Shown here piece after piece: positions 1 through 64,000 of a stretch of 64,000 nucleotides of DNA. How positions within the stretch are numbered: the first letter of the stretch is position 1; the number at the start of each line of letters is the position of its first letter. Location of the stretch: assembly GCA_037951105.1 (NCBI GenBank), contig JBAMJV010001322.1:1-64000 (forward strand). The letters are read 5' to 3'. The notes below the pieces were generated by a model. It had not been told where the DNA came from. It did not search any database and was given only the letters and a program-made list of their open reading frames with translations. The position numbers were made by a program, and so were the translations under genes. This DNA is from Echinarachnius parma (Eukaryota > Echinodermata > Echinoidea > Clypeasteroida > Echinarachniidae).

Positions 1-3000
1 GAAACATTTTCGAGGCCAAGACCGTGATCCGTCAAACAATTGCAAGGCCAAGACCGAGATCAATTTGAAGCCGAGATCAAAATCCATCACAAATTTCGAG
101 ACCGAGATCCGCCAAAGTTTTTCGAAACTGAGACGGAGATCCGTCAAAATTGTTGGAAGTCGAGATCGAGATCATCAAATATTTTTGAGGCGGAAACCAA
201 GATCCATCAAACAAATTCAAGGTCAAGAACAAATTTTGAAGCCGAGATCAAAATCTATCAAAAGTTTTCGAGACTGAGATCCATACAAGTTTTTCGAAAC
301 TGAGACCAAGATCCGTCAAAATTGTCAGAAGACGAGACGAGATCTATGAAATATTTTCGAGGCCGAGACCGAGATCCGTCAAACAAATTCAAGGCCAAGA
401 CCAAGATCCATAAACAAATTTCGAAGCCAAGATCAAAATCCATCACAAATTTTCGAGACCGAGATCCGCCAAAGTTTTTCGAAACTGAGACCAAGATCCG
501 TCAAAATTGTCAGAAGACGAGACCGAGATCTATGAAATATTTTCGAGGCCGAGACCGAGATCCGTCAAACAAATTCAAGGCCAAGACCAAGATCCATAAA
601 CAAATTTTGAAGCCAAGATCAAATCCATCACAAATTTTCGAGACCGAGATCCGCCAAAGTTTTTCGAAACTGAGACCAAGATCCGTCAAAATTGTCAGAA
701 GACGAGACCGAGATTATGAAATATTTCGAGGCCGAGACCGAGATCCGTCAAACAAATTCAAGGCCAAGACCAAGATCAAATTTTGAAGCCAAGATCAAAA
801 TCCATCACAAATTTTCGAGACCGAGATCCGCCAAAGTTTTTCGAAACTGAGACCAAGATCAGTCAAAATTGTCAGAAGACGAGACCGAGATCTATGAAAC
901 ATTTTCGAGGCCAAGACCGTGATCCGTCAAACAATTGCAAGGCCAAGACCGAGATCAATTTTGAAGCCGAGATCAAAATCCATCACAAATTTTCGAGACC
1001 GAGATCCGCCAAAGTTTTCGAAACTGAGACGGAGATCCGTCAAAATTGTTGGAAGTCGAGATCGAGATCATCAAATATTTTTGATGCGGAAACCAAGATC
1101 ATCAAACAAATTCAAGGTCAAGAACAAATTTTGAAGCCGAGATCAAAATCTATCAAAAGTTTTCGAGACTGAGATCCATACAAGTTTTTCGAAACTGAGA
1201 CCAAGATCCGTCAAAATTGTCAGAAGACGAGACCGAGATCTATGAAATATTTTCGAGGGCGAGACCGTGATCTGTCAAACAATTTCAAGGCCAAGACCGA
1301 GATCCATTAGCAATTTTGAAGCCGAGATCAAAATCCATCACAAATTTTCGAGACCGAGATCCGCCAAAGTTTTTCGAAACTGAGACCAAGATCCGTCAAA
1401 ATTGTCAGAAGACGAGACCGAGATCTATGAAATATTTTCGAGGGCGAGACCGAGAATTCAAGGCCAAGACCAAGAGATCCATAAACAAATTTTGAAGCCA
1501 AGATCAAAATCCATCACAAATTTCGAGATCGAGATCCGCCAAAGTTTTTCGAAACTGAGACCAAGATCAGTCAAAATTGTCAGAAGACGAGACCGAGATC
1601 TATGAAACATTTTCGAGGCCAAGACCGTGATCCGTCAAACAATTGCAAGGCCAAGACCGAGATCAATTTGAAGCCGAGATCAAAATCCATCACAAATTTT
1701 CGAGACCGAGATCCGCCAAAGTTTTTCGAAACTGAGACGGAGATCCGTCAAAATTGTTGGAAGTCGAGATCGAGATCATCAAATATTTTTGAGGCGGAAA
1801 CCGAGATCCATCAAACAAATTCAAGTTCAAGAACAAATTTTGAAGCCGAGATCAAAATCTATCAAAAGTTTTCGAGACTGAGATCCATACAAGTTTTTCG
1901 AAACTGAGACCAAGATCCGTCAAAATTGTCAGAAGACGAGACCGAGATCTATGAAATATTTTCGAGGCCGAGACCGAGATCCGTCAAACAAATTCAAGGC
2001 CAAGACCAAGATCCATAAACAAATTTTGAAGCCAAGATCAAAATCCATCACAAATTTTCGAGACCGAGATCCGCCAAAGTTTTTCGAAACTGAGACCAAG
2101 ATCCGTCAAAATTGTCAGAAGACGAGACCGAGATCTATGAAATATTTTCGAGGCCGAGACCGAGATCCGTCAAACAAATTCAAGGCCAAGACCAAGATCC
2201 ATAAACAAATTTTGAAGCCAAGATCAAAATCCATCACAAATTTTCGAGACCGAGATCCGCCAAAGTTTTTCGAAACTGAGACCAAGATCAGTCAAAATTG
2301 TCAGAAGACGAGACCGAGATCTATGAAACATTTTCGAGGCCAAGACCGTGATCCGTCAAACAATTGCAAGGCCAAGACCGAGATCAATTTTGAAGCCGAG
2401 ATCAAAATCCATCACAAATTTTCGAGACCGAGATCCGCCAAAGTTTTTCGAAACTGAGACGGAGATCCGTCAAAATTGTTGGAAGTCGAGATCGAGATCA
2501 TCAAATATTTTTGAGGCGGAAACCGAGATCCATCAAACAAATTCAAGGCCAAGAACAAATTTTGAAGCCGAGATCAAAATCTATCAAAAGTTTTCGAGAC
2601 TGAGATCCATACAAGTTTTTCGAAACTGAGACGGAGATCCCTCAAAATTGTTGCAAGTCGAGATCGAGATCATCAAATATTTTCGAGGCCGAGACCGGGA
2701 TCCGTCAAACGATTTCAAGGCCAAGACTGAGATCCAGTAACAAATTTGAAGCCGAGATCAAAATCCATCACAAATTTTCGAGACCGAGATCCGCCAAAGT
2801 TTGTTTAAACTGAGAAGGAGATCCGTCAAAATTGTTGGAAGTCGAGATCGAGATCATCAAATATTTTCGAATCCGAGACCGGGATCCGTCAAACGATTTC
2901 AAGGCCAAGATTGAGATCCAGTAACAAATTTTGAAGCCGAGATCAAAATGCATCACAAATTGTCGAGACCGAGATCCGCCAAAGTTTTTCGAAACTGAGA

Positions 3001-3192
3001 CGGAGATCCGTCAAAATTGTCAGAAGACGAGACCGAGATCTATGAAATGTTTTCGAGGCCGAGACCGAGATCCGTCAAAAAATGTCAAGGCCAAGACTGA
3101 GATCCATTAATACATTTTGAGGCCGAGATCGAAATCCATCAAAGTTTTCGAGACTGAGATTCGCACAAGATTTTCGAAACTGAGACCAAGAT
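1..3192. repeat. Satellite array, ~31-bp monomers in ~186-bp higher-order units
   Basis: The whole stretch is built from ~31-bp monomers of the form TTTTCGAGACCGAGATCC plus GTCAAA, with variants (GAAGCCGAGATCAAAATCC, AACTGAGACCAAGATCC). Marker variants recur at 346, 532 and 716, spaced 186 and 184 bp, so about six monomers form a higher-order unit. The array starts before the window and ends near 3192 at unique DNA. Because 186 is divisible by three, long frames stay open (for example 322-786 and 1951-2457) and read as 62-residue repeats rich in Arg, Asp and Lys. I read these as by-products of the period, since 31 is not a multiple of three and frames break at indels. Confidence 0.93.
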
Positions 3193-41720: not shown

Positions 41721-41860
41721 ATTAATTTTCAAATGTATTTGTTATGGTATGTTGCAACGTGGATATCAAAGTGGATATTCACTCCTATGGAACGTTGAAG
41801 TATACGGGTATATTGGTACGTATTGCACCTTCTAGACTCGTAGAGGGCGGACACTCAAAA

Positions 41861-43293
41861 TAAACCCCTCAAAAAAACTTCGGAAACTCAAGTTTCATCG
41901 ATCATATCTCTCGTATTTTTTAATAAGAATACTCGAAATCGGTGTCACAATAAAGCCTCATTATATACCTTTCAAACGGTGCATTATGTGTAGTGATTAT
42001 GCAATTGGGGCGATTGCAGTAGCCCAGAGAATAGGGGGAGGCAGGAAGTGAAATCTCGCAAAATGGCCCCAATGCATTCAATTTACGAGTGCAAGACTGT
42101 GTTGACCAGTTTTCTAAAGGTTAACATTCTATTGAATGCTGCCACCCTTTCCATTCATCAAAATTGTTGAATTTGATACCATTTTAATGGAAATTATCTC
42201 TTCCTTACGATGGCATATTAATCGTAAGGATTATGCAAATGGGGTGTGTGCAGCGAACCGAAATATGGAGATGGGTCGAGTGTGAAATCAGACAAAAAGA
42301 TATGGAGTTGACAAAAAATCAGAGCGTTGCATTTTTTTCGAGCTTTTGGGAGGATTTTTTAGCATTTCAAATAAAATATTCATGATTTAAATTGATATCA
42401 ACGGAAAGCCCAACAACTCTCCTGTATGAAAATGTGACATTTATAATGATTTTTGTAAAGGGCGGCTGCAGGGAGATGAATGTGGGGGAGCCTCAAAAGT
42501 GACCCATTTCAAAACGCTCTGATTTGGTGTCGGTATCTGTATACCATTGTGTAGAGGATGTAATGCGACTTGAATTAGTTGGCCATGAATGAGAGGAATT
42601 CAATTGAAAACGCATGAATAGTGCCTTGAAATCAGAGCGTTTCAAAATGGGTCACTTTTGAGGCTCCCTCCCATTCATCTCCCTGCAGCCGCCCTTTACA
42701 AAAATCATTATAAATTTCACATTTTCATACAGAAGAGTTGTTGGGCTTTCCGTTGATATCATATTTGATCATGAATATTTTATTTGAAATGCTAAAGAAT
42801 CCTCCCAAAAGCCCGAAAAAAATGCAACGCTCTGATTTTTTGTCAACTCCATATCTTTTTGTCTGATTTCACACTCGACCCATCTCCATATTCCGGTTCG
42901 CTGCACACACTCCATTTGCATAATCCTTACGATTAATATGCCATCGTAATGAAGATATAATTTCCATTAAAATGGTATCCAAATCAACAATGTTGATGAA
43001 TGGAAAGGGTGGCAGTATTCAATAGAATGTTAACCTTTAGAAAACTGATCAACACAGTCATGCACTCGTAAATTGAATGCATTGGGGCCATTTTGCGAGA
43101 TTTCACTTCCTGCCTCCCCCTATTCTCTGGGCTACTGCAATCGCCCCAATTGCATAATCACTACACATAATGCACCGTTCGAAAGTATATAATGAGGCTT
43201 TATTGTGACACCGATTTCGAGTATTCTTATTAAAAAATACGAGAGATATGATCGATCAAACTTGAGTTTCCGAACTTTTTTTGGAGAGGTTTA
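41861..43293. mobile_element. Long inverted-repeat (foldback) element, 665-bp arms
   Basis: Left arm 41861-42525 and right arm 42629-43293 are highly similar complements of equal length with a 103-bp unpaired centre. Ends read TAAACCCCTC and GAGAGGTTTA, so a TA target duplication is possible (Tc1/mariner-like), by inference. No transposase frame. A transcript across it would form a ~660-bp hairpin, a potential source of endogenous siRNA. It ends 145 bp before the first recognised exon of the 2A/Death-domain gene. Confidence 0.88.
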
Positions 43294-43438
43294 TATAAGT
43301 GCAGGCTGCACGAGCAAATATATAGATGAAAACTAAAACAACAACAACATAATGATGAATTATATCATTAGCTTATGGCTTTTCAGGCTTTCAGTTAACA
43401 TGCAATATTAATCGGACTCATTTTCTTTCTGTTTACAG

Positions 43439-44207
43439 GGACAATAAAGGAGAGCGCATTCACACCTAGGTCCTTTGGTGTGACTTATTCGCCACCATGC
43501 CTGTCTCTCTGTGTGAGTGGCGAATAAGGATTGGGAGATTCTTTCCTCGAACTCAGAGCGATGACAATAAAGGATGTACACGCACTCATCAGCCAAGGAC
43601 AAAGGGGAAGAGACAGAAGCAATCCAGCTTCAAGGTTTCTCAGGAGAATGACCAGAAAAATGAAAGCCATGAACCAAGGAGCCTAGGCTATGTGGTTGTA
43701 CTTATTCTGGTAACATTGCTGACGTTGGTTTGTTTGCTAAGAATAAGTGAGGGGCTGGTGCCTAAACTAATTGACACTGGAGACTCATTCGATACACCTT
43801 CAGTCGTAACATCGATACTTAAAACTCCGTTCTCGTCAATCCGTACAATATCTGCATCATACGACAACTCATCATTCGAGCATTCTGCAGTTGAAACTTC
43901 AAGACTGAACCCGTCATGCTTCACAATCCCCATCGTGCCCCCATCGTGCGCCAGCTCTTCGATGACACCCTCAACGATGACATTCTCAACTGACCAAACC
44001 ACCTCTGGCGCGTCTTCAAAACTGAACCCTTGCTGCTTCACAATCCAGTCAGTACCCCCTTCGTACGCCAACTCTTCAATCACACCATCTTCCGACCACA
44101 CCACCTCTGACTTGCCTTCAAGACTGAACTCTCAAGGAGCCGCATCTTGGACGGACTCGTCAGGGTTTGCAGTCAACGAGCCATCGACATTTAGATTTGC
44201 CATGCAG
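43439..44207 (+). CDS. Exon A of the 2A/Death-domain gene: membrane-anchored Ser/Thr-rich segment
   Basis: A strong acceptor (TTTTCTTTCTGTTTACAG, ending 43438) precedes an ATG at 43497 in good context (GCCACCATG), with an in-frame TAG just upstream at about 43468, so 43439-43496 would be 5' untranslated. The 237 codons end at 44207 before a GTGAGC donor, phase 0. Residues 1-62 are basic and polar, 64-82 form one hydrophobic helix (VVVLILVTLLTLVCLL), and the rest is Ser/Thr/Pro-rich with two imperfect ~35-39-residue repeats starting LNPSCFTIP (137) and LNPCCFTIQ (176). This suggests a type II membrane protein with a glycosylated stalk. I do not recognise the family. Its link to exon B rests on matching phase and distance, not on homology. 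Confidence 0.6.
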
Positions 44208-47200
44208 GTGAGCATTCATGTTTTCCACATTTCTTTTTACAATACTGCTATCGAATAGTTCAGCGTAGACATATACATTGTATTCTGGTATTGCCAGAAA
44301 TATATCCCATACAGCCTATTTGTTTGTGTTTATGACATTTTTATGATATCATATAATTCTGGTTAGTTTTCGTGTGTTTTAAACAATGTTTACAACAAGC
44401 TGCATCACTTCGGTAGTCGTTTATACGTATCCCTGAGTTAACTTGTATGTTTCGGGTTCGAGTCAAGTTTATGATATCTCATGACAATTATGAGCATTGA
44501 TAGTCATTTATATACATATTTTGCAATAACTTTCAAATAAATGTAATCTCACCTCCTTGCTTTTATTCCTGTTTGAGTAAATATAAAATCGATGTATCGT
44601 GTCATAACTTTTAAATGATGTATAGTTTCGTGTTATCTGTAATAAGCAACATTACAACAAGCTATGTATAATAGACATAATAATAATAATAAACCATTTT
44701 TATATAAGGAATCACAACAAATTAAGTCTCAAAGCGCTTTAAAGGAATGACAATTTAGAAAAAGGAAGATAGACAGGGAGCGAAGAAGAGACAAGGTGAA
44801 ATGAAATATGACAAATCTTTGACAATCAGTGTAAAAACCTAGTCCATCAGTTTGTTGTGTTCTTACTTATTACATCATTTAGTATAACATGCAACTATAG
44901 ATCTTGTGAAAGTTGTACAAGACATATCAAGTAGTCTCTGAGTAATAGTTAACTGAGAAGTCTGATGTCTACATAATTACACTAGCAATACTAGAGTTCA
45001 AAGATTAAACAAACTGACTTATTGAACGCAAACGTATGGCTGTATCATGCTTGCTTAACAGATAAACTATTGTATCGCTTTTTTCCCCTCAAAAAGAACA
45101 CATACCATTCATTTTACTTATTTTGTGAATGTAAGGGTACATACTTATAATTAACCTGTTGGCTCCATGATAGAAGTGTCCACGTTCGCAGGGCTGGATA
45201 AGGTTTATCCTGATCTAATTCTATCACCACGTTCTTCTACACTATTCTTCTACGACTACGAAAATAAAATGGTTTCCACTAATCATCGCAGGAAGCATGC
45301 GCCCTTTTCAGGACGGACGATGACAGTGATGTCCATCAATGCCGAAGGGTTTTCTTCAGCGAAAGGACAGCTGATTGAAAAACTCTGCCACGATAATGAC
45401 TGTGATATCCTGTGTCTACAGGAGACGGACAGAGGCCAGCAACAGTTCAGGCCCAGAATTCCCGGAATGAAGCTTGCTGTGGAAAGGCCTCATGAGAGAT
45501 ATGGTAGTGCGATTTTCACCAAACATGACACAATCATCGACCAGACGTCACTAACTAAGAGTGACAACGTAGAGATCCTGTCAGTTAGCCTGGGGAAATT
45601 GTCTGTGACATATATATACAAGCCGCCTGGCACAAGTTTCTCATTCAGATAACCTGAGACCTTCAATTACCAGCAGATCAATGTTGTTATTGGAGACTTC
45701 AACAGCCATAGCACCAGCTGGGGTTACAGTGAAACAAATGATGATGGTACTCTGGTAGAGGAGTGGGCTGAAGCACACCAACTCGACCTAATCCACGATG
45801 CAAAACTCCCTCCCTCCTTCAACAGCGGCCGCTGGAGAAGGGGAAAACAATCCAGACCTGGCCTTCACCAGTGAGCGCATATCTGCCCTCAGCAAGAAGA
45901 ATGTGCTAGATCCTATACCCCATCCACAACACAGGCCAATCGTCATCGATTTCTCTGCTGCTGTGGTGCCCCAGAAAGAAAGGTCATTGGATTTCACCAA
46001 TGACCTTGATGCAGCCTTTGCTGATCTTGACCCTACTCCAGCCAACTACGAGATATGTATTAAACTGACACAAGAAATATCCAAGAAGGAATCTCTGCAG
46101 ATAGCAAAGCCCTCTATGATGAGTACTTGAAGCTTCATGAGGAGGATCCCTTCTCAGATGACACCATGAATGCAGGAGAGATGCTGACGGCAGCCATTGC
46201 CGAAGAGCGATGGAAATCCTGGCAAGAAATCATCGAATATGTAGATATGACACACAACAGCAAGAAAGCTTGGTCAACTATAAAAAAGATCAACAACGAC
46301 CCCAAACAAGCAAAAGTGCACTCCAACGTCACTGCTAACCAGGTTGCTCACCAGCTTATGTTGAATGGCAAAACTCAACATAAACTCCAGCAAAAAGAAC
46401 ATCCTCCATGGAACCAGTCCGATAAAGAATCCAACTGGACTTTTACCCTGAAAGAACTCCAGACAGCAATCAACAGCCTTAAGAACGGTAAGGCAGCTGG
46501 TCTTGATGTCATCCGGACTGAGCAGATTAAGCATCTCGGACAGGTTGCTCTACTATGGCTCCTTACCCTGTATGACAATTGCGTCCTCCAGTCCCAACTA
46601 CCAAAGATCTGCAGGAAAGCTCGAGTAATCGCTATCCTCAAACCAGGCAAAGATCCACAAGCGGCCAAAAGTTACAGACCAATCTCCCTACTATGCCATC
46701 CCTACAAGCTTTTTGAGCGCCTCATCTTGAAAAGGCTTGATCCTATTACGGAACAACATCTAATTCCTGAGCAGGCCGGCTTCCGTCCTTGGAGGTCATG
46801 CACAAGTCAGGTTCTCAACTTGACTCAGTTAATTGAAGATGGCTTGGAGAGGAATCAACCTACCGGCGTAGTGTTTGTAGACCTAACGGCTGCCTATGAC
46901 ACAGTGAACCATCGATTACTCCTCAATAAGCTGTACAGGATGACAAGTGACATTCATCTCACCAAACTCATCCGACTGCTCCAGTCCTGTTCAATATCAA
47001 CACGAATGACAAACCTGTCTCTCCAGGCACAAGGAGCTTCATCTATGCTGACGATCTCGGCATTGCGAATCAGAACAGCGATACCAATGAGATAGAGAGC
47101 ACCTTAACATCAGCCCTAGACAACCTGACAGTATACTACAGAGACAACCAGCTGAAAGCAAACCCTACCAAGACCAAGGTTTGCTTATTCCATCTACGCA

Positions 47201-48225
47201 ACCGCGAGGCTGGGAAGAAACTATCACTCACATGGAATGGTACCCCCCTTGACCACTGCGACCATCCAGTGTACCTTGGCGTTACCCTGGATAGGACACT
47301 TTCATTGAAAGGTGAGGGGGAAAGTGAGGACCAGGAACAACCTCCTCCGGAAACTGACAAACTCCTCTTGGGGTGCCAGTGCATCTACACTACGGGCAAC
47401 AGCTCTTGCACTTTGCTATTCTGCTGCGGAGTATGCGTGCCCAGTCTGGGAAAGATTCTCGCACTCGAGGAAACTTGACCCAATTCTCAACGATAGCTGC
47501 AGATCAATCTCTGATTGTATAAAGCCAACAAATGTAAGCAGCCTGTATGTCCTGTCCGGCATTGCTCCACCCGATATACGCCGGTCAGTAGCCAGTAGCG
47601 TGGAGCGTCTCAGACACAGTCAGGATAGCCGCCATCCATGTTATGACATCCAACCATCCCAGAAACGGCTCAAATCAAGGAAACGCTTCCTACACTCTGT
47701 CCAACCACTGACCGAATCCCCACAGGTGGCCATACGTAGGCTTTGGGAGGAGAGGCGCAGCAGTAACCGCCACCATGACAAGCTACCCCCAACAAGCAGT
47801 TACCCCCAGGACACAAGCAAGACTGGAAGACATGGAAGTCCCTCAACCGACTTCGCACAGGGATGGGTCGATGCAAAGTCAACATGAAAAAGTGGGGATA
47901 TACAGATGATGACAACATTAACTGCGACTGTGGCACATCACAAACCATGCAACACCTCCTTCAATGTCCTAACCTTGAGGAACAGTGTAGTCAAGAAGAT
48001 ATGGTGGCTGCAAATGAGACAGCCCTGCGATGTGCAAAGTCATGGCAAAATATTTATTATGTTGGATTAGTTTAGATGTAGGATACAAAAGAAGAATTAA
48101 CCTGTTTCATCGAATTACTTGTTTCACACATCGTGTGAGGTGCCGTTAGGTACAGTGTATTCTTCATTAATCTGCAGCTCTGATGTTTTTCTCCTTTCTA
48201 TCTGAAGCATGAAACTGTCTCACAG
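44208..48225 (+). other. Intron 1 of the 2A/Death-domain gene (inferred)
   Basis: Donor GTGAGC at 44208, acceptor CTGTCTCACAG ending 48225. It contains a scrap of the AATAATAATA / AAGCGCTTTA repeat (44678-44745) and a decayed LINE on the same strand (45167-48130). 44208-45160 otherwise shows nothing recognisable. Confidence 0.5.
45167..48130 (+). pseudogene. Decayed APE-type non-LTR retrotransposon (jockey-like)
   Basis: The reading crosses several frames. 45167-45652: apurinic endonuclease N-part (MSINAEGF, LCLQET, RYGSAIF). 45685-45805: GDFNSHSTSWGY of the same domain. 46127-47095: reverse transcriptase with KSYRPISLL, PEQAGFRPWRSC and VFVDLTAAYDTVNH (motif A). The part carrying motif B is deleted: sequence passes from IRLLQ directly to PVLFNINTND and FIYADDLG (motif C, about 47040). 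47312-48075: C-terminal part with MKKWGYTDDDNINCDCG and QTMQHLLQCPNL. At least three frameshifts plus the deletion make it inactive. Clade assignment to jockey-like is from motif impression only. Confidence 0.82.
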
Positions 48226-48395
48226 AACTCATCCTTGTCATCCTGTGTGAGCCACACGAAGTGTCATGGGAAATGCATGTGGAATCTGTTCATATCCGGA
48301 CTCCACCTCGCGAGGGCAGGAGACATAGAAACCAACCCTGGTCCGCAGACCGATCCTCAGTCTCAAGGAGCAAGGAGCAAGGATGTCGATAACAG
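48226..48395 (+). CDS. Exon B: 2A-like translational recoding peptide
   Basis: 170 nt, acceptor CTCACAG before and donor GTAGTT after. Frame enters in phase 0 from exon A and leaves in phase 2 into exon C. It encodes 56 residues; residues 31-40 read AGDIETNPGP, the complete 2A signature D-x-E-x-N-P-G-P, with the usual hydrophobic lead (MWNLFISGLHLARA). In 2A peptides the ribosome skips the bond between Gly39 and Pro40 (codon at 48343). An internal ATG (residue 18, 48277) would give a short N-terminal 2A leader, as in sea urchin NLR-type proteins where 2A can act as an alternative signal sequence. The acceptor choice is supported by the phase match; a competing AG lies at 48206. Confidence 0.82.
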
Positions 48396-49993
48396 GTAGT
48401 TGAACCCCTCCTATGCATTAGTTATACTCGTATGGTGTAGGAGAGGGAACTGCCGCAGTTTTTTGTCCTATTTCGATCTACATTCCGTCTCTCTTCTGCT
48501 TAACTATTGCTCAAGAACACCCTCTTCATTCGCATATTACAAATTATTAAAATAATGTTTAACAACTGCGTGCCTTGTATTTTAGGGTGCGCTTCATTAT
48601 TCCGAACACGCAAATTTCGTATACCTTAGGGTTCGTTAATCCTAAAATGAAATAGGGTTCGTTAATCAGAACATTTTTTTGCATTATTCCGAAGGTTCGT
48701 TATTCCGAAGGTTCGTTATTCCGAAGGTTCGCTTTCCTAAAATGAAATCAGGTTAGTTATTCCGAAGGTTCGTTAGTCCGAACATGAAATCGGGTTCGTT
48801 ATTCCGAAGGTTCGTTATTACGAAGGTCCGTTATTCCGAGGGTTCGTTATTCCCAAGGTTTGCTATTCCTAAATTTAAATCGGGTTCGTTAATCCGAAAA
48901 TGAATTTTGGTTGATCTGGCGACGGGAGGGAAAGGGGGAGGGGTATGATTAATTCAGGCTGTGAATTAAATAAACAAATCAACAATAATAGTATTATAAC
49001 AAACCCGATTTAATTTTCTGATTAATTAACGAACCCTATATTATTTTCGGACTAATGAACCTTCGGAATAACGACCCTTTGGAATAACGAACCCGATTTC
49101 GTTTTTAGGAATAGCGAAACTTCGGAATAACGAACACTCGGAATAACGAACCTTCGGAATAACGAACCTTCGGAATAACTGAACCTTCGGAATAACGAAC
49201 CTTCGGAATAACGGACTGTAACCGTATTTTAGAGTCCAAATTCAATTCCGAACATAAACTTTCTAGTGCACATGTCACTTTGCCAATGTAATGATTACAT
49301 GAAATTTAATTGTATGTAATGATTATGATCCAAAGAGAAATATGTTCCTGTAAGTGTAGTTTGTATTGAGTAAAATAAAACCGTATCTTTAAAACAAATT
49401 ATGTATTTATTAGAAAAACGCCTTGACATACACGCTTAGTGATGTTCACTATTGCTTTGAGGTTTCACAACAACCACATCCCCACCCTGCAGCTAAATCA
49501 AGGTTAACCTATTGCCTATGGGAACCTGTCGGTCCTGAGCTAAATCCATGGGATTGCAAAATGTAATAAGGAACAGGCTACCACTAGGTTTTCGCAACCA
49601 GTGCAAGTTAACATTATTCTAACATTATCGATACATTGAACGCTCTTGAGAAAACCAAAGAAGGCAACGCACTATTTTCTACATGATTTAAATAAAGGAT
49701 CATTGGTGTAATAGCGATAGTGGACTATGATAAAAAGAACCCGAGACCTCCGGATTGCTTTATTCCAAAGTTAGTGTGAATTATGAATCACCAACACACC
49801 CATTTACAATTTACACCCTTCCTTATATAAATTACAAACAGAAATCTTGCCATATATACTTTTGTAATTAATCCAATTCAAAAGTGCCCCAAAACTAATT
49901 TAGCACCAAGTACATTCCAATGTATGGTATACTGCAGCATTAAAATATTTTGTTCCTTTCCTACCTAATACTGTGTATATTCTATCACCACAG
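48396..49993 (+). other. Intron 2 of the 2A/Death-domain gene
   Basis: GTAGTT donor and TCTATCACCACAG acceptor. Phase 2 on both sides restores a Ser codon. It contains the inverted 16-bp repeat array 48640-49215. 49216-49990 shows nothing recognisable. Confidence 0.7.
48640..49215. mobile_element. Foldback element of inverted 16-bp repeats (GGTTCGTTATTCCGAA)
   Basis: The left block (48640-48895) has about ten direct copies of GGTTCGTTATTCCGAA and variants; the right block (49010-49215) has copies of the complement TTCGGAATAACGAACC. About 110 bp of unrelated DNA separates them. The layout matches foldback transposons with tandemly repeated outer domains. The termini may extend a little further (GCGCTTCATTATTCCGAA from 48589). 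Confidence 0.85.
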
Positions 49994-50397
49994 CCCAACC
50001 ACATCTGAAGACGTCCTATCCGATGAGATCATCATGGAACTCGCCAGAGAAGTCCCTCATGACAAGTTTGATGTTCTAGGCGTCAAGCTTGATAAGTCAT
50101 GGACTTCGGTCGACAATACATTGCACAGGCACGGGAAAGACACCGCAAAAGCTGCGACTGAGATTATGATGGCATGGAAGACGAAGAACGGCGCTGGACT
50201 TGAGCAGGCCAAGCAACTCAAGGTTATCTTGGATAAGGCTGAACTGCGTTATTTGTCTACAAAGCTTGCATCAGAGATAACTAAATCGGCGTCTTCGTTG
50301 GAAAGTGAGTCAGTCAGACTGCCCGTGGCTCAGGCATGTCAGGGTATAGAGCCTGCACCAACAACAGCTGCTTTTACACCAACGCCGTTACATGAAG
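49994..50397 (+). CDS. Exon C: Death domain
   Basis: 404 nt between a CACCACAG acceptor and a consensus GTAAGT donor (phase 1 out). Residues 7-91 of the exon read as a Death-fold domain: helix 1 LSDEIIMELAREV, KFDVLGVKL, SWTSVDNTLHRHG, helix 4 with the conserved Trp in EIMMAWKTKNG, then QLKVILDKAELRYLSTKL. A Ser/Pro/Thr-rich tail follows. Death domains recruit adaptors or caspases in innate immune and apoptotic signalling. Together with the upstream 2A it matches the N-terminus of echinoderm NLR-type genes, but no NACHT or LRR coding sequence is seen before the window ends, so a smaller adaptor is also possible. Confidence 0.85.
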
Positions 50398-51319: not shown

Positions 51320-51396
51320 GATTTATCCGGAATTCGAACCCGAGAAAGTCCTCCGGATTGCTAGACCGGTGCTCTATCAGCTGAGCTATATAAATC
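51320..51396 (-). tRNA. tRNA-like sequence, anticodon position AGC (Ala), probably a pseudogene or SINE head
   Basis: On the minus strand the 77 nt have an A-box TAGCTCAGCTG, B-box GGTTCGAATTCC, a perfect 7-bp acceptor stem (GATTTAT with ATAAATC), a D-stem GCTC/GAGC and an anticodon stem CCGG/CCGG with loop CTAGCAA. Problems: one extra base between acceptor stem and position 8, a T-T mismatch in the anticodon stem, an enlarged variable region and a T-stem with two wobble pairs. No CCA or T-run terminator follows. A decayed tRNA or a tRNA-derived repeat fits better than a working gene. Confidence 0.45.
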
Positions 51397-59398: not shown

Positions 59399-60070
59399 CT
59401 AATAGAGACGACTCATATAGTCAGCACCGACATTGTCCTTCCCTTTGATTGCCTCTACGCGATATCGGTACGGCTGGAGGGCCAGTGCGCATCTGCACAC
59501 TCGTCCATTTGTAAGCTTGCCTCGTCGCAACGCCCGCAATGGCTCGTGGTCGACTTCCAAAACGAATTCCCGTCCATAGAGGTAGGGCTCGAATTTTTGA
59601 ACGGCCCAAACTACTGCGAGGCATTCTCTCTCAATCGTAGAATACCGCGTCTCTCTAGCAAGTAGCTTTTTGCTGGCGAACGCTACCGGGAACTTCTCTT
59701 CCTCAAATTCTTGCAGCAGAACCGCACCAATCCCGGTCTCCGATGCATCTGTCCTTAGGATGAAGGGGCGGTCAACCTCCGGTAGGTGCAGGACGGGGGA
59801 ATTTGTCAACTTTGCCTTCAGACTGTCGAACGCTCTCATCTGCGCTTCTCCCCAGCGAAGCTTGTTTGGTTCTCCTTTCTTCGTGAGATCGGTTAGTGGT
59901 ACTGCTATGGCTGCAAAGTTGGGCACGAACTTCCGGTAGTAGTTTGCTAGCCCCAGAAACGACCGCAAATGTCGTTTCGTCTGTGGTTGAGTTGCCTGCT
60001 GGATTGGGTTGGATTTTTCCTCTTCCGCTCTGGTGGCCAAGGAACTCGAGGTCCTCATATCCCAAAACAC
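59399..60070 (-). pseudogene. gypsy reverse transcriptase C-terminal part and RNase H
   Basis: From about residue 30 the frame reads the connection (LRSFLGLANYYRKFVP) and then RNase H with acidic residues in FILRTDASETG (D108), YSTIERECLAVVWA (E148) and LEVDHEPL (D174), ending GADYMSRLY. RNase H removes the RNA strand during reverse transcription. The preceding part of the reverse transcriptase is in another frame, so a frameshift lies near 60010. RNase H itself looks complete. Confidence 0.88.
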
Positions 60071-60140
60071 ACTTGGTGGGTTTCGCCTTCAGATTCGCCT
60101 TGCGAAGTCGTGTGAACAATTCTCGTAAGACATCAAGATG

Positions 60141-61868
60141 CTATTCCCATGAGATGGTGTGTACAATAATGTCATCGATGAAGTTGTGCACACCGTCCAT
60201 GCCTCGGATCAGGTTTCGCATGACTCTGCTGAAACTCGCCGGGGCGTTGACCAGACCAAACGGCATTGTCTTGAATTGGTACAGGCCATTTGGTGTCACA
60301 AAGGCCGTCGTGGGTTTGGCACGATCGGTGAGGGGCAGTTGCCAGTAACCCATGGTGAGGTCAATTTTACTGAAATAGTTGTCCTTGGCAAGTTTGGCGA
60401 ATATTTCCTCCGGATCAGGTATTGGCTCTGCATCTGATACTGTCACCAAGTTTAGTTTCCGAAAGTCGCAGCAAAATCGGTTCGAGCCAGCCGCCTTCTT
60501 CACTAACACGATCGGGGATGCATACGGTGATGATGAGTGTTCAATCACATCAAGATCTAGCATCTCCTTTACTTCCTCGTCAACAACCTGTCGAAGAGCG
60601 TGAGGGAGTGGATATGGTCGCGATTTGATCGGTCGCGGATCTGTCACCTCGATGTCGTGATACCCTAAGCTTGTCCCGCCAGGGACATCAGTCAGGACAT
60701 CGGTGTAGTTTCCAATTAACTTCCGAATTTGCTGTTGTTGCTCCTCCGTCAGTGTGTTGCTGATGTTCACGTCGGCTGCTGTCTGCGTCTGTCGTAGTGT
60801 CATGAGTGTTGGCACATGCAACAGCTTTTCATTTGTCATGGGTTGATTTCTCATCGAGTCTGATTCGGCGTCGTCCTCGACTTCATCTTCTTCTATGACG
60901 GACACAGCTGCGATCTCCAAGGACGCAAACCCAGCTCCCACTGCATCAACATCTTCGTCCCGTCGGTGATACTCCTTGAGAAGGTTTGCGTGAAAGGTCG
61001 TAACTCTTGAACCAAGGTCCACACGATAGTCCAGTTTGCCCACCTTCCCAATGACTCGGAACGGACCTTTCCAATGCATCAACAGTTTGTTGTGATCAGT
61101 TGGTAGTAGAAACAGCACTTCGTCACCGACCTTGAATGATCGCATCCTCGCCTTCCGATTATACTTCTCACGGTACCGATCCCGTGACTTCTTCAACTGT
61201 TCCTGTACAAGTTGACATGTTGACTCTAGTTTCTCTCGCAGGTCCATGACATATTGGTATGTCGTCTTCGTTTCTTGTCCTGTGCTCCCGTTTGTCCACA
61301 ACTCTCGGACGATCATCAGCGGCCCGCGAACGACTCTCCCATATAGTAGTTCGAACGGCGCAAACCCGGTAGAGTCATGTGGCGCTTCTCGATACGCGAA
61401 CAGTAACGCGTCTAGGTATCGATCCCAGTCAGAAGGTCGCTCCTCGCTAATCTTCTTAAGCATTTGCTTCATCGTGCCGTTGAACTTCTCCACTAGCCAG
61501 TTACACGCAGGGTGATAAGGTGTAGTGGTGAGGTGTCTGATTGACACAAGTCGGCTGACTTCCTTCATGACGTCCGACGTGAACTGGGTACCTCGATCCG
61601 TCAGCATCTCTTGTGGAAATCCGACTTTCGAGAACATGCTGAACAGTGCCTCAGCCACCGAAACTGTGTCAATATTCTTCAAAGGTACTGCCTCCGGATA
61701 CCTTGTGGCGTAGTCCATGAGCGTCAGGATGTATCGGTTGCCCTTCGATGTCACTGGGGAAATTGGTCCCACAATATCCACCGCTACCCGGTGAAATGGT
61801 ACTTCGATCAGAGGAGTAGATCCCAGCGGAACTTTGCTAACCTTTCCTTTTGCAGCGAGCGCTGGCAC
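60141..61868 (-). pseudogene. gypsy integrase core fused in frame to reverse transcriptase
   Basis: One 575-codon frame holds first the integrase and then the reverse transcriptase. Integrase: D31 (VAVDIVGP), D91 (LTDRGTQF), E127 (WLVEKFNG) with exactly 35 residues between the last two, and a GPY/F module at 265-270 (HWKGPF). A ~100-residue linker follows. Reverse transcriptase: VIEHSSSPYASPIVLVKK, motif A FSKIDLTMGYWQ (D503), motif B PFGLVNAPASF, and catalytic FIDDIIV (D565, D566). The frame ends at an in-frame stop at 60141, after which homologous sequence continues in the same frame. This ORF alone proves the unusual domain order. Confidence 0.92.
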
Positions 61869-62824
61869 ACATCACAGGAACGGCAATACCTCCCAGCGTC
61901 AGCTCTGATGCCTAACCAGAACAAATTATGTAGCATCTTTTCAGCAGTTTTGTGTGCTCCCAAATGTCCTCCCAGGATCGATTCATGTGCCAACTGGAGG
62001 ATCTGTCGTCGACATTTTCGCGGAACAACGAGCTGATGGGTTACATCCCCAATTCCCGTGCTTAACTCGCGATAGATAAGGCTAGCTTTCATCACAAATG
62101 AAGATCTACTCCCATTTCGACTAGTTCTCACTTCCTTTGTTGTCACTTGTTGTCGAATCTTGTTGAGTGATGTATCCTCACTTTGTTCCTTGCGAAATTC
62201 TGCTGCCGTCGCAATATCTATCTGTCCCGGCACCTTCAATATCTTGGGAGGCTTTAATTCTCTCTTCCGCTGGTTTCTCGTTTCGACCGCCATCCCTTCC
62301 TCACCATGCCAACCTGCATTCGGGTCACCCGGTTCCCGGACATGCTCGACATTTCCGAGTATCACATCGTACACTGGGTTGTCCATACATAAGACTTCTA
62401 ACTCGCCTACGAAGAAGGGAGAATCTATCTTGACCTTAGCAACAGGGAACCTCTTCGCTGTGCCGTCAATCAGCACGCAGATTCTTTCCTGTCCGGTCAT
62501 CTGATCCAGTCGAACTAGTCCCGTTTTCACCACCGCAGTCGAGCATCCGCTGTCCCGGAGAACATTTACTCTTGTGCTGTTGACCAAACCCTTCATCACG
62601 GGCATCGAACGCACTGCCTTTGCGCCGCAAGCGACGCTCACCATTGGCAAAGGCGAATTTTCCACCTTGCTCGTCTTGTCCGGTTCCATTCCGGCACATG
62701 AAAAACAAGAATCAACTAACAAACAGGCGTTACCTTTTTTCTGATTCCTCACGGTTACGCCTCTTCGAACTCGATGCTTCGTCTTGCTCTCTTGATTCGA
62801 CCTCTCTCGGATCGCGATCATCAA
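61808..62824 (-). pseudogene. gypsy aspartic protease and integrase zinc domain
   Basis: The 338-codon frame carries a retropepsin-like protease with DSGCSTAVV (active-site D91) and a later YDVILGN segment, then a spacer, then the integrase N-terminal zinc domain with His280, His287 and Cys317, Cys320 (YCRSCDVCQ). The frame then departs from the integrase core, which continues in the overlapping frame starting at 61868, so a frameshift lies at about 61850. Confidence 0.85.
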
Positions 62825-63176
62825 TGTCTACTAGTTCTTCAAAGGAGTCTTGATCCGAGCTCTGATTCCCCTGTCGATCCATTGCTGACGCTCCTCTCTC
62901 TTTCTTTCTGTCCCGCTGTCTGTAGTTCTTGGCAATATGCCGGGTCCTTCCGCAGATGAAACATCCCTGAGGTCTGGTACGTTGTCCTTCTGCGGGCCGG
63001 GGCCTTCTATCACCGGTAGGGTTGCGGGGAGAAGAATCGTATTTCATCTGAGGCAACGACTTCCCACTACTTTGAGATCCAGTGTGCCATCCTGACCGCG
63101 CTTCAATGAACCGGTCGGCAATAGCAGCGAACTCCTTCATATCTGTGGGGTCTCTCTCTCGGATGAACGTCTCCAT
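62730..63176 (-). pseudogene. gypsy gag C-terminal part with defective zinc knuckle
   Basis: Begins inside the capsid-like region (RERDPTDMKEFAAIADRFIEA) and continues to a nucleocapsid knuckle CFICGRTRHIAKNY at about 62935-62976. The family pattern is C-x2-C-x4-H-x4-C, so the final Cys is replaced by Tyr (TAC for TGC). A highly charged tail follows and overlaps the protease frame by about 95 bases. Confidence 0.82.
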
Positions 63177-63430
63177 ATCCTTAGAACATGCTGAAAAAAT
63201 TGTTCGGTAAGGAGTAGGTGCACAAGTCCTTCATAGTTCTGACCTTTTCCCGCCAGTTCCACCCATCTCTCAAGATAACTCCGTATCCTTACAACATATT
63301 GTGATGCTGTTTCCCCCGACTCTGGCTTGGCACTCCGGTATTTCTTCCTGAACCCTTCGCTAGTGATTGCGTATCTTTTCAGGATGGCTGTCTTCACCTT
63401 GTCATAGTTGAGGGCGTCCTTGTCATCCAA
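63137..63430 (-). pseudogene. gypsy gag, SCAN-like capsid segment
   Basis: Contains FRKKYRSAKPESGETASQYV, RIRSYLERWVELAG and VHLLLTEQFFQHV, the pattern shared by Gmr1-like gag proteins and the vertebrate SCAN domain, which is thought to derive from such a gag. The frame is lost after EQFF; the homologous continuation is in the frame of 62730-63176. Confidence 0.78.
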
Positions 63431-63487
63431 TCTCGCGTAAGTGTTGAGAGCTTTTCAAACATCACGCGGCCAGGCCTGGGCGGTGGC

Positions 63488-63802
63488 TTACCTTTCAAAC
63501 CTATTTACGTAGGTATTAAGACAATCAGTACCGCAAACAAACAGGGGGAGTTTTGGAGGGTGTAATACATTACTTAGTCCCTGATTTCCTTGGTTTCTTT
63601 GTCCATTTGCCGCTCGAGTTTTCTCTAAATCCAATTGGAGCCCAACCAATTCTTTCTCCTCTTGCATGCGATCGCGCTCTTCTGCCCTTACATCTCTAAG
63701 TCTATTCTGTTCCCCTGTTATGAAAGCCTGGAGAGCTGGCCCTTGGTGCCCCAATTTTTTCCCAATCTGCATTAATTTTTCAATATCCATAATCCCTAAC
63801 AA
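63488..63802 (-). pseudogene. gypsy gag N-terminal part
   Basis: 104 codons from an ATG at 63802 (a second ATG six codons down). A Gln/Glu/Arg-rich, coiled-coil-like stretch is followed by PKLPLFVCGTDCLNTYVNRFER, which matches the conserved start of gypsy capsid (PKLP-F...D-D-YL-RFER). The frame ends there; the next part of gag is in another frame. Confidence 0.72.
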
Positions 63803-64000
63803 CCCTAACTATATTAACACGACTGCTTACCAAAACAGGGCCTGATGCAGTAATCAGCAGAAGGCGATAACCAGCGCAGACTGAGGAACCCCACGTCAGT
63901 ACACCTCGATCTCAACTGGATCAAGAAATAGTATTTAAGAATACAAAACAAAGACAACTTAAATTTATGGTTGTTTAAAGAAAGATCTTTACAAAACAAA
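63803..64000 (-). other. gypsy leader region, 5' end beyond the window
   Basis: Upstream of gag on the minus strand. No primer-binding site or 5' LTR end could be identified before the window ends. Confidence 0.4.

Follow-up and report, generated by a model that had tools for sequence, protein, structure and literature searches.

A predicted NLR-family gene of Echinarachnius parma with a 2A peptide encoded behind a membrane-anchor exon

We describe in Echinarachnius parma a gene that is probably a member of the NLR family and whose mRNA would encode, in order, a membrane protein, probably type II (exon A), a 2A peptide (exon B), a Death-like domain (exon C), a NACHT domain (exon D) and LRR-like repeats. 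The window, by which we mean the whole stretch of DNA that was analysed, comprises the first 64,000 of the 112,500 bases of contig C1321, and searches covered 1.2 Gb of genome. Because order, strand, phase and coding constraint are conserved across many paralogues, we assign the membrane segment, the 2A and the Death-like exon to one gene, as an original prediction made from the window sequence had done, and we infer a spliced mRNA that joins them. That prediction is partly supported overall, with its start of exon B, its short Death-domain protein and its alternative start codon being the parts that found no support.

Results

Exon structure of the window gene

All three exons of the original prediction are real, judged by splice-site ranks, open frames and a module conserved across a large family (Table 1), and the phases in the window sequence came out as claimed, phase 0 between A and B and phase 2 between B and C. 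Sites were ranked within the window using a simple weight matrix, with percentages entered from general knowledge, among 3277 AG and 3608 GT sites. Exon A (237 codons) has the acceptor ranked 2 and the donor ranked 1 (CAG/gtgagc), and exon C has the acceptor ranked 73 and the donor ranked 3 (GAAG/gtaagt, phase 1). The splice sites of exon B are middling (acceptor 169, donor 143, AACAG/gtag), which counts against our explanation. Direct splicing of A to C would bring in a stop four codons later, and an exon that corrects the phase, as B does, is therefore required. Acceptors at 48208 and 48226 are both in frame; exon B had been predicted to start at 48226, and the paralogues instead place the acceptor at 48207/48208.

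Table 1. Positions of the exons, their main elements and the intronic retroelement in the window
Feature	Position	Strand	Content or basis
Exon A	43439..44207	+	Part of the 5' UTR, ATG 43497, helix and Ser/Thr-rich outer region; P0002 is a homologue
Predicted membrane helix, residues 63-81 of A	43683..43739	+	Hydropathy and charge of the entire N-terminus
Ser/Thr-rich repeat, 117 bp (39 residues), 1.8 copies	43897..44111	+	
Non-LTR retroelement fragments	45161..48094	+	Inside the A-B intron, outside the gene
Exon B, carrying the 2A	48208..48395	+	Acceptors and donors of paralogues
2A core DIETNPGP	48322..48345	+	Six-frame motif search and paralogue conservation
Exon C, Death-like domain	49994..50397	+	Profile matches, splice ranks and relatives

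Exon A has one membrane helix and Ser/Thr-rich repeats, in agreement with the prediction, and the helix is its only strongly hydrophobic stretch by hydropathy. The first ATG lies in the context GCCACCATG and is preceded by an in-frame stop, and the encoded N-terminus, MPVSLCEWRIRIG, is basic. Net charge ahead of the helix is +7 in the window and ranges from +2 to +12 across 10 A exons; the 15-residue flanks of the helix are non-discriminating for topology in most A copies, and those of the window, with charges of -2 before and -1 after, do not favour an N-in orientation. On hydropathy and the charge of the whole N-terminus, we tentatively read the product as probably a type II anchor, N-in/C-out. 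The ectodomain of the window has 2 sequons, as against 1.93 by chance, and P0002, a copy of A, has one Ser/Thr-rich unit fewer. A hairpin at the ATG was no better than in shuffles (z -1.07), and its 5' arm was not kept in the paralogue leaders compared. Directly 5' of exon A, a foldback element with arms of ~670 nt occupies positions 41852-43301 of the window.

The full 2A claimed for exon B is present as DIETNPGP, the only NPGP with 2A context across the six frames of the window. Its core fits the (D/G/C/N)(V/I)ExNPGP definition, the upstream context HLARAG follows the (A/S/C)G-before-D rule of the Leu-rich 2A class, and the predicted skip site falls between 48342 and 48343 (Gly/Pro). This core is kept in 32 of 32 distinct B exons. 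In 27 windows around the 2A, selected for having the core, AGD(I/V)ExNPGP is invariant throughout (27/27), as are A-G and the Leu at -12 and -7, with x the only free position of the core apart from the I/V variation; synonymous changes occur at six of the invariant codons (A, G, D, N, the second G and the last P). Elsewhere in the genome, two B-type 2A exons lie ~200 bp apart on one strand (C4585:56076 and 56273), and within the B-C intron of the window, TTCGTTATTCCGAAGG arrays run in both orientations (48684-49213).

A multigene family with conserved order and phase

Genome-wide searches returned 150 scored matches for exon B (the best of 285 candidates), 150 for exon C (the best of 630) and 163 for exon A (214 candidates, 150 scored); 26 of the 150 scored A rows were dropped as further fragments of listed exons, leaving 124, and 13 A matches lay outside that list. 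Contigs may include both haplotypes, and the loci are not all independent genes. A same-strand A was found within 15 kb upstream of 109 of the 150 scored B matches, at a median of 1.8 kb, including 28 of the 30 best matches and 28 of the last 50, and within the same 15 kb no scored B had an A on the other strand, and none had one solely downstream (0/150 each). B was found downstream of 108 of the 124 A matches. A C-type exon lies at most 10 kb downstream of 57 of the 150 scored B matches and only upstream of none; the count becomes 71/150 after adding 38 rows from 149 Pfam Death matches, which were hand-picked, some because they were located on B contigs. These B-C pairing counts are lower bounds, with the best C matches alone scored. 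Within the length windows searched in the protein collection, the only homologues were P0001 (a copy of C) and P0002, and scans of viral contigs gave no match, a result of little weight.

The junctions are conserved in the same way. At 10 of 10 loci with A adjoining B, A ends in ATGCAG/gtga and B follows an AG at the homologue of window position 48208, and all 14 paralogues checked keep the splice sites and phase 0 of this junction. The conserved AG acceptor is present in all 32 distinct B exons (47 matches), which come from loci chosen because they match B or C most closely and are thus a biased sample. Start, helix and phase-0 A-B sites are kept in C7848 and C13570, where A is 33-36% identical to that of the window, and C8929 keeps both the CAG/gtgagc donor and the B acceptor. 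At C3768, ATGCAG/gtgaac ends a Ser/Thr-rich open frame of 851 aa that begins with a match to residues 1-84 of A, after which come B, following an AG in phase 0, and a Death-like exon that at 22.1 bits falls just short of the cut-off (22.6). C3068 has B with A ~9 kb upstream, none in the adjoining 2 kb, and lacks a C match over the stretch examined.

Coding constraint was assessed as pN/pS (Nei-Gojobori) among stop-free paralogues with at least 85-90% exon coverage, and the pooled ratios, which are rough given the recent origin of the paralogues and the sequence exchange that they seem to undergo, were 0.48 for B (n=27), 0.56 for C (n=19) and 0.71 for A (n=7). Within A, the N-terminus and helix (92 codons) gave 0.49 (bootstrap 0.33-0.74, 8 sequences); the ectodomain gave 1.16 (bootstrap 0.77-1.89, 8 sequences), a range that does not establish diversifying selection. 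The 16 codons past the A donor gave 0.84, and 4 of 8 copies have a stop at codon 17, which fits an intron beyond the donor and does not prove it.

NACHT and LRR-like exons beyond the window

The search for downstream NACHT exons suggested by the original prediction found one at 74592 (74.6 kb) of the window's contig, open and in phase with exon C (L076:591-2231; PF05729, 53.4 bits, cut-off 26.7), and an LRR-like exon at ~77.4 kb that is weak (16.3 bits against 27). Together with the strong donor of exon C, this in-phase frame speaks against a soluble Death-domain protein ending after ~171 residues, as had been proposed. A-B-C is also followed by NACHT in C7848 (56.9 bits), C13570 (58.3 bits) and C8929 (61.3 bits; cut-off 26.7 for all), and in C8929 repeated, Pfam-weak LRR-like exons come after it, of which one scored 14.6 bits against 40 and another had no match. 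Since NACHT follows in three relatives as well as on the contig of the window itself, we interpret these loci as NLR genes and not as Death-only genes.

The NACHT exon at 74592 is joined to exon C by order and phase alone, and we regard it as a probable but not a certain part of the window gene, because the C-D gap is 24.2 kb and the subtype is unlike that of the closest relative: C8929 has an exon A 97% identical to that of the window, and the two NACHT exons share 50.6% identity, as against 66.7% with that of C7848. Exon C of C8127, C3417 and C11618 is 97-99% identical to that of the window and their exon B only 79%, a mismatch that, with the NACHT subtype of the window, we read as exon-level mosaics or gene conversion.

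It is a distinct possibility that the family is real and the window copy itself decayed or chimeric, consisting of A-B-C remnants without a working NACHT-LRR of their own. The 24.2-kb gap and the differing subtype of D would suit such a history, as would mosaics among near-identical copies (99% identity in C and 79% in B for C8127), but A, B and C are all open with strong outer splice sites, D is open and in phase, and no second A, B or C was found between exon C and NACHT (window, L069 and L076).

Exon C and the Death domain

The predicted Death domain finds support in the relatives of exon C and is weak in the window exon itself. In a profile scan of 29 from a set of 30 C loci (L016 left out), 19 of 29 matched Death and 9 of 29 matched WXG100_2 at E<=0.01, and when scanned singly, 2 of 5 family exon Cs reached the Death cut-off. 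The window exon scored 12.8-14.2 bits against Pfam Death (cut-off 22.6), and its best Pfam match was WXG100_2, at 18.2-19.0 bits (cut-off 27); this higher score for WXG100_2, with both below cut-off, is a point against our explanation. An AlphaFold model of exon C (two near-identical rows, pLDDT 52) searched with Foldseek gave no Death fold and was uninformative, and PDB sequence searches gave no Death match. We take exon C to be a diverged Death-fold domain, a call that depends on the relatives. At L031 (C7142), exon C runs past its usual donor into an open frame of 620 aa with 19 Ser/Thr-rich units of ~24 residues each.

The start of translation

If exon B were instead the first coding exon, with its start at Met 48277, the 2A would be N-terminal and exon A would belong to a separate transcript. 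This arrangement has a precedent in the N-terminal 2A class published for sea urchin NLRs (Roulston et al. 2016, PMC4981915), and 2A exons of that kind are present in this genome: the SpNLR2A6 peptide matched 115 times, with 67-74% identity in the best 17 and more than 76% in none of those listed. No A was detected for 41 of the 150 scored B matches, 28 of which overlap matches of the published peptide, and this too we count against our explanation. The same overlap is seen for at least 28 of the 109 B matches that do have A, and so does not separate the two classes. Besides the presence of A upstream of those 109, the start codon itself speaks against an N-terminal 2A in the window gene, since Met 48277 is present in only 9 of 27 B copies, and the residues before it begin at a conserved acceptor and have the look of constrained coding sequence (pN/pS 0.40-0.63). 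We consider this arrangement improbable, and the internal ATG that the original prediction offered as an alternative start is disfavoured on the same evidence. As to whether the 2A could itself be hydrophobic enough for a signal, the best 19-residue Kyte-Doolittle mean is 0.55 in B as against 2.91 for the exon-A helix.

A retroelement in the A-B intron

Fragments of an endonuclease and a reverse transcriptase lie in several frames at 45155-48075 of the window, the last ORF ending at 48075, and are bracketed by AATTAACCTGTT repeats at 45149 and 48095, the longest word shared by the two flanks. Shared words of at least 12 occurred in 27 of 1000 shuffles; as a putative 12-bp target-site duplication, ending at 48106, the repeat alone is suggestive, and its position is what persuades. 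The same type of element is present in the A-B intron of C8929, and the A-B distance is ~4.0 kb in C1980 and C14175 too. At ten other loci, the A-B introns measure 489-1291 nt. Exon B lies outside the element, because B starts at 48208, past the element and its repeat, which reach no further than 48106, and because the short-intron paralogues keep B; the refutation named in the original prediction, that exon B belongs to a retrotransposon ORF, thus does not apply. 2A motifs also occur in open frames of at least 1000 aa in C1013, C6029, C4289 and similar contigs, which are perhaps non-LTR retrotransposons and a third 2A class of this genome. Although the element ends only ~0.1 kb upstream of exon B, and 2A in open frames of >1000 aa is what non-LTR elements would be expected to show, it is extremely improbable that exon B is a retrotransposon 2A placed by chance between two genes, given its position outside the repeat-flanked element and its retention behind introns too short to hold 2.9 kb.

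Three further features of the window were recorded. Minus-strand ORFs in several frames at 59399-63808 resemble an LTR retroelement (protease, reverse transcriptase and integrase, by eye), a 186-bp satellite array with long in-frame open stretches spans 228-3192, and a tRNA-like match on the minus strand at 51320-51395 (36.4 bits) could represent either a tRNA or the head of a SINE.

Discussion

In the NLR-family gene that we favour, translation would start at the ATG of exon A, and the signal-anchor would target the ribosome to the ER, with the Ser/Thr-rich tail entering the lumen. At NPG/P, the ribosome would usually leave one bond unmade, so that the membrane protein would be released carrying a 2A tail, and would continue with a separate cytosolic Death-NACHT-LRR receptor starting with proline; when skipping failed, the receptor would remain fused to the anchor and be carried to the ER or the outer side. 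These two fates are proposed from artificial signal-anchor constructs, in which, as reported, the zone upstream of the site controlled skipping (PMC2978324). In exon B, the first 17 residues fall ~28-44 residues ahead of the Gly-Pro site, in this same zone.

A broader 'receptor plus sensor' interpretation is one that we hold to be somewhat unlikely: each of about a hundred loci would produce, 1:1 from one mRNA, a variable ectodomain at the membrane and a cytosolic NLR belonging to the same locus, with the 2A acting as a translocon switch. If this were true, and with the conserved first half of exon B lying in the zone reported to control skipping in the artificial constructs, ER or translation stress could change the share of membrane-fused receptor. 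Should the gene structure itself be as we propose, and the 2A separate the membrane protein from the NLR, a family of about a hundred loci would show a surface protein and an intracellular immune sensor being co-produced stoichiometrically in nature and would supply evolved examples of a 2A behind a signal-anchor, a combination that has been hit-and-miss in artificial constructs. What 2A does in sea urchin NLRs would also become directly testable.

Sea urchin NLRs with a 2A at or near the N-terminus are already known, and what appears new here is the membrane protein encoded ahead of the 2A. In SpNLR2A of S. purpuratus, the 26-aa N-terminal 2A is reported to be itself a signal sequence, failed skipping is reported to route the product to the exocytic pathway, and 14 of 87 later NLR entries have the 26-aa N-terminal form (PMC4981915). 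The window gene resembles SpNLR2A, as described there, in having a 2A ahead of a Death-NACHT-LRR protein, and differs in that its 2A is internal, behind a separate exon with its own membrane anchor. Among the papers listed from the open-access literature, covered by title and abstract start, we found no description of a membrane segment before an NLR 2A; some of the published 'within' 2A cases of S. purpuratus NLRs could be this same arrangement, unrecognised.

The order of a type II anchor, a 2A and a protein without its own signal is also that of the artificial anchor-2A-reporter constructs of de Felipe et al. (2010), for which the uncleaved fusion is reported to go to the ER and skipping to be dependent on the stretch 28-48 residues before the site (PMC2978324). 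Those constructs are man-made, whereas the present case is a natural multigene family. For the StopGo/2A peptides of RNA viruses, Li et al. (2026) give the core (D/G/C/N)(V/I)ExNPGP with a Leu-rich context and (A/S/C)G before D (PMC12846837). The window 2A shares this core and the Leu-rich (A/S/C)G context and, unlike the viral peptides, lies in a cellular gene, a use of 2A that the same source describes as rare.
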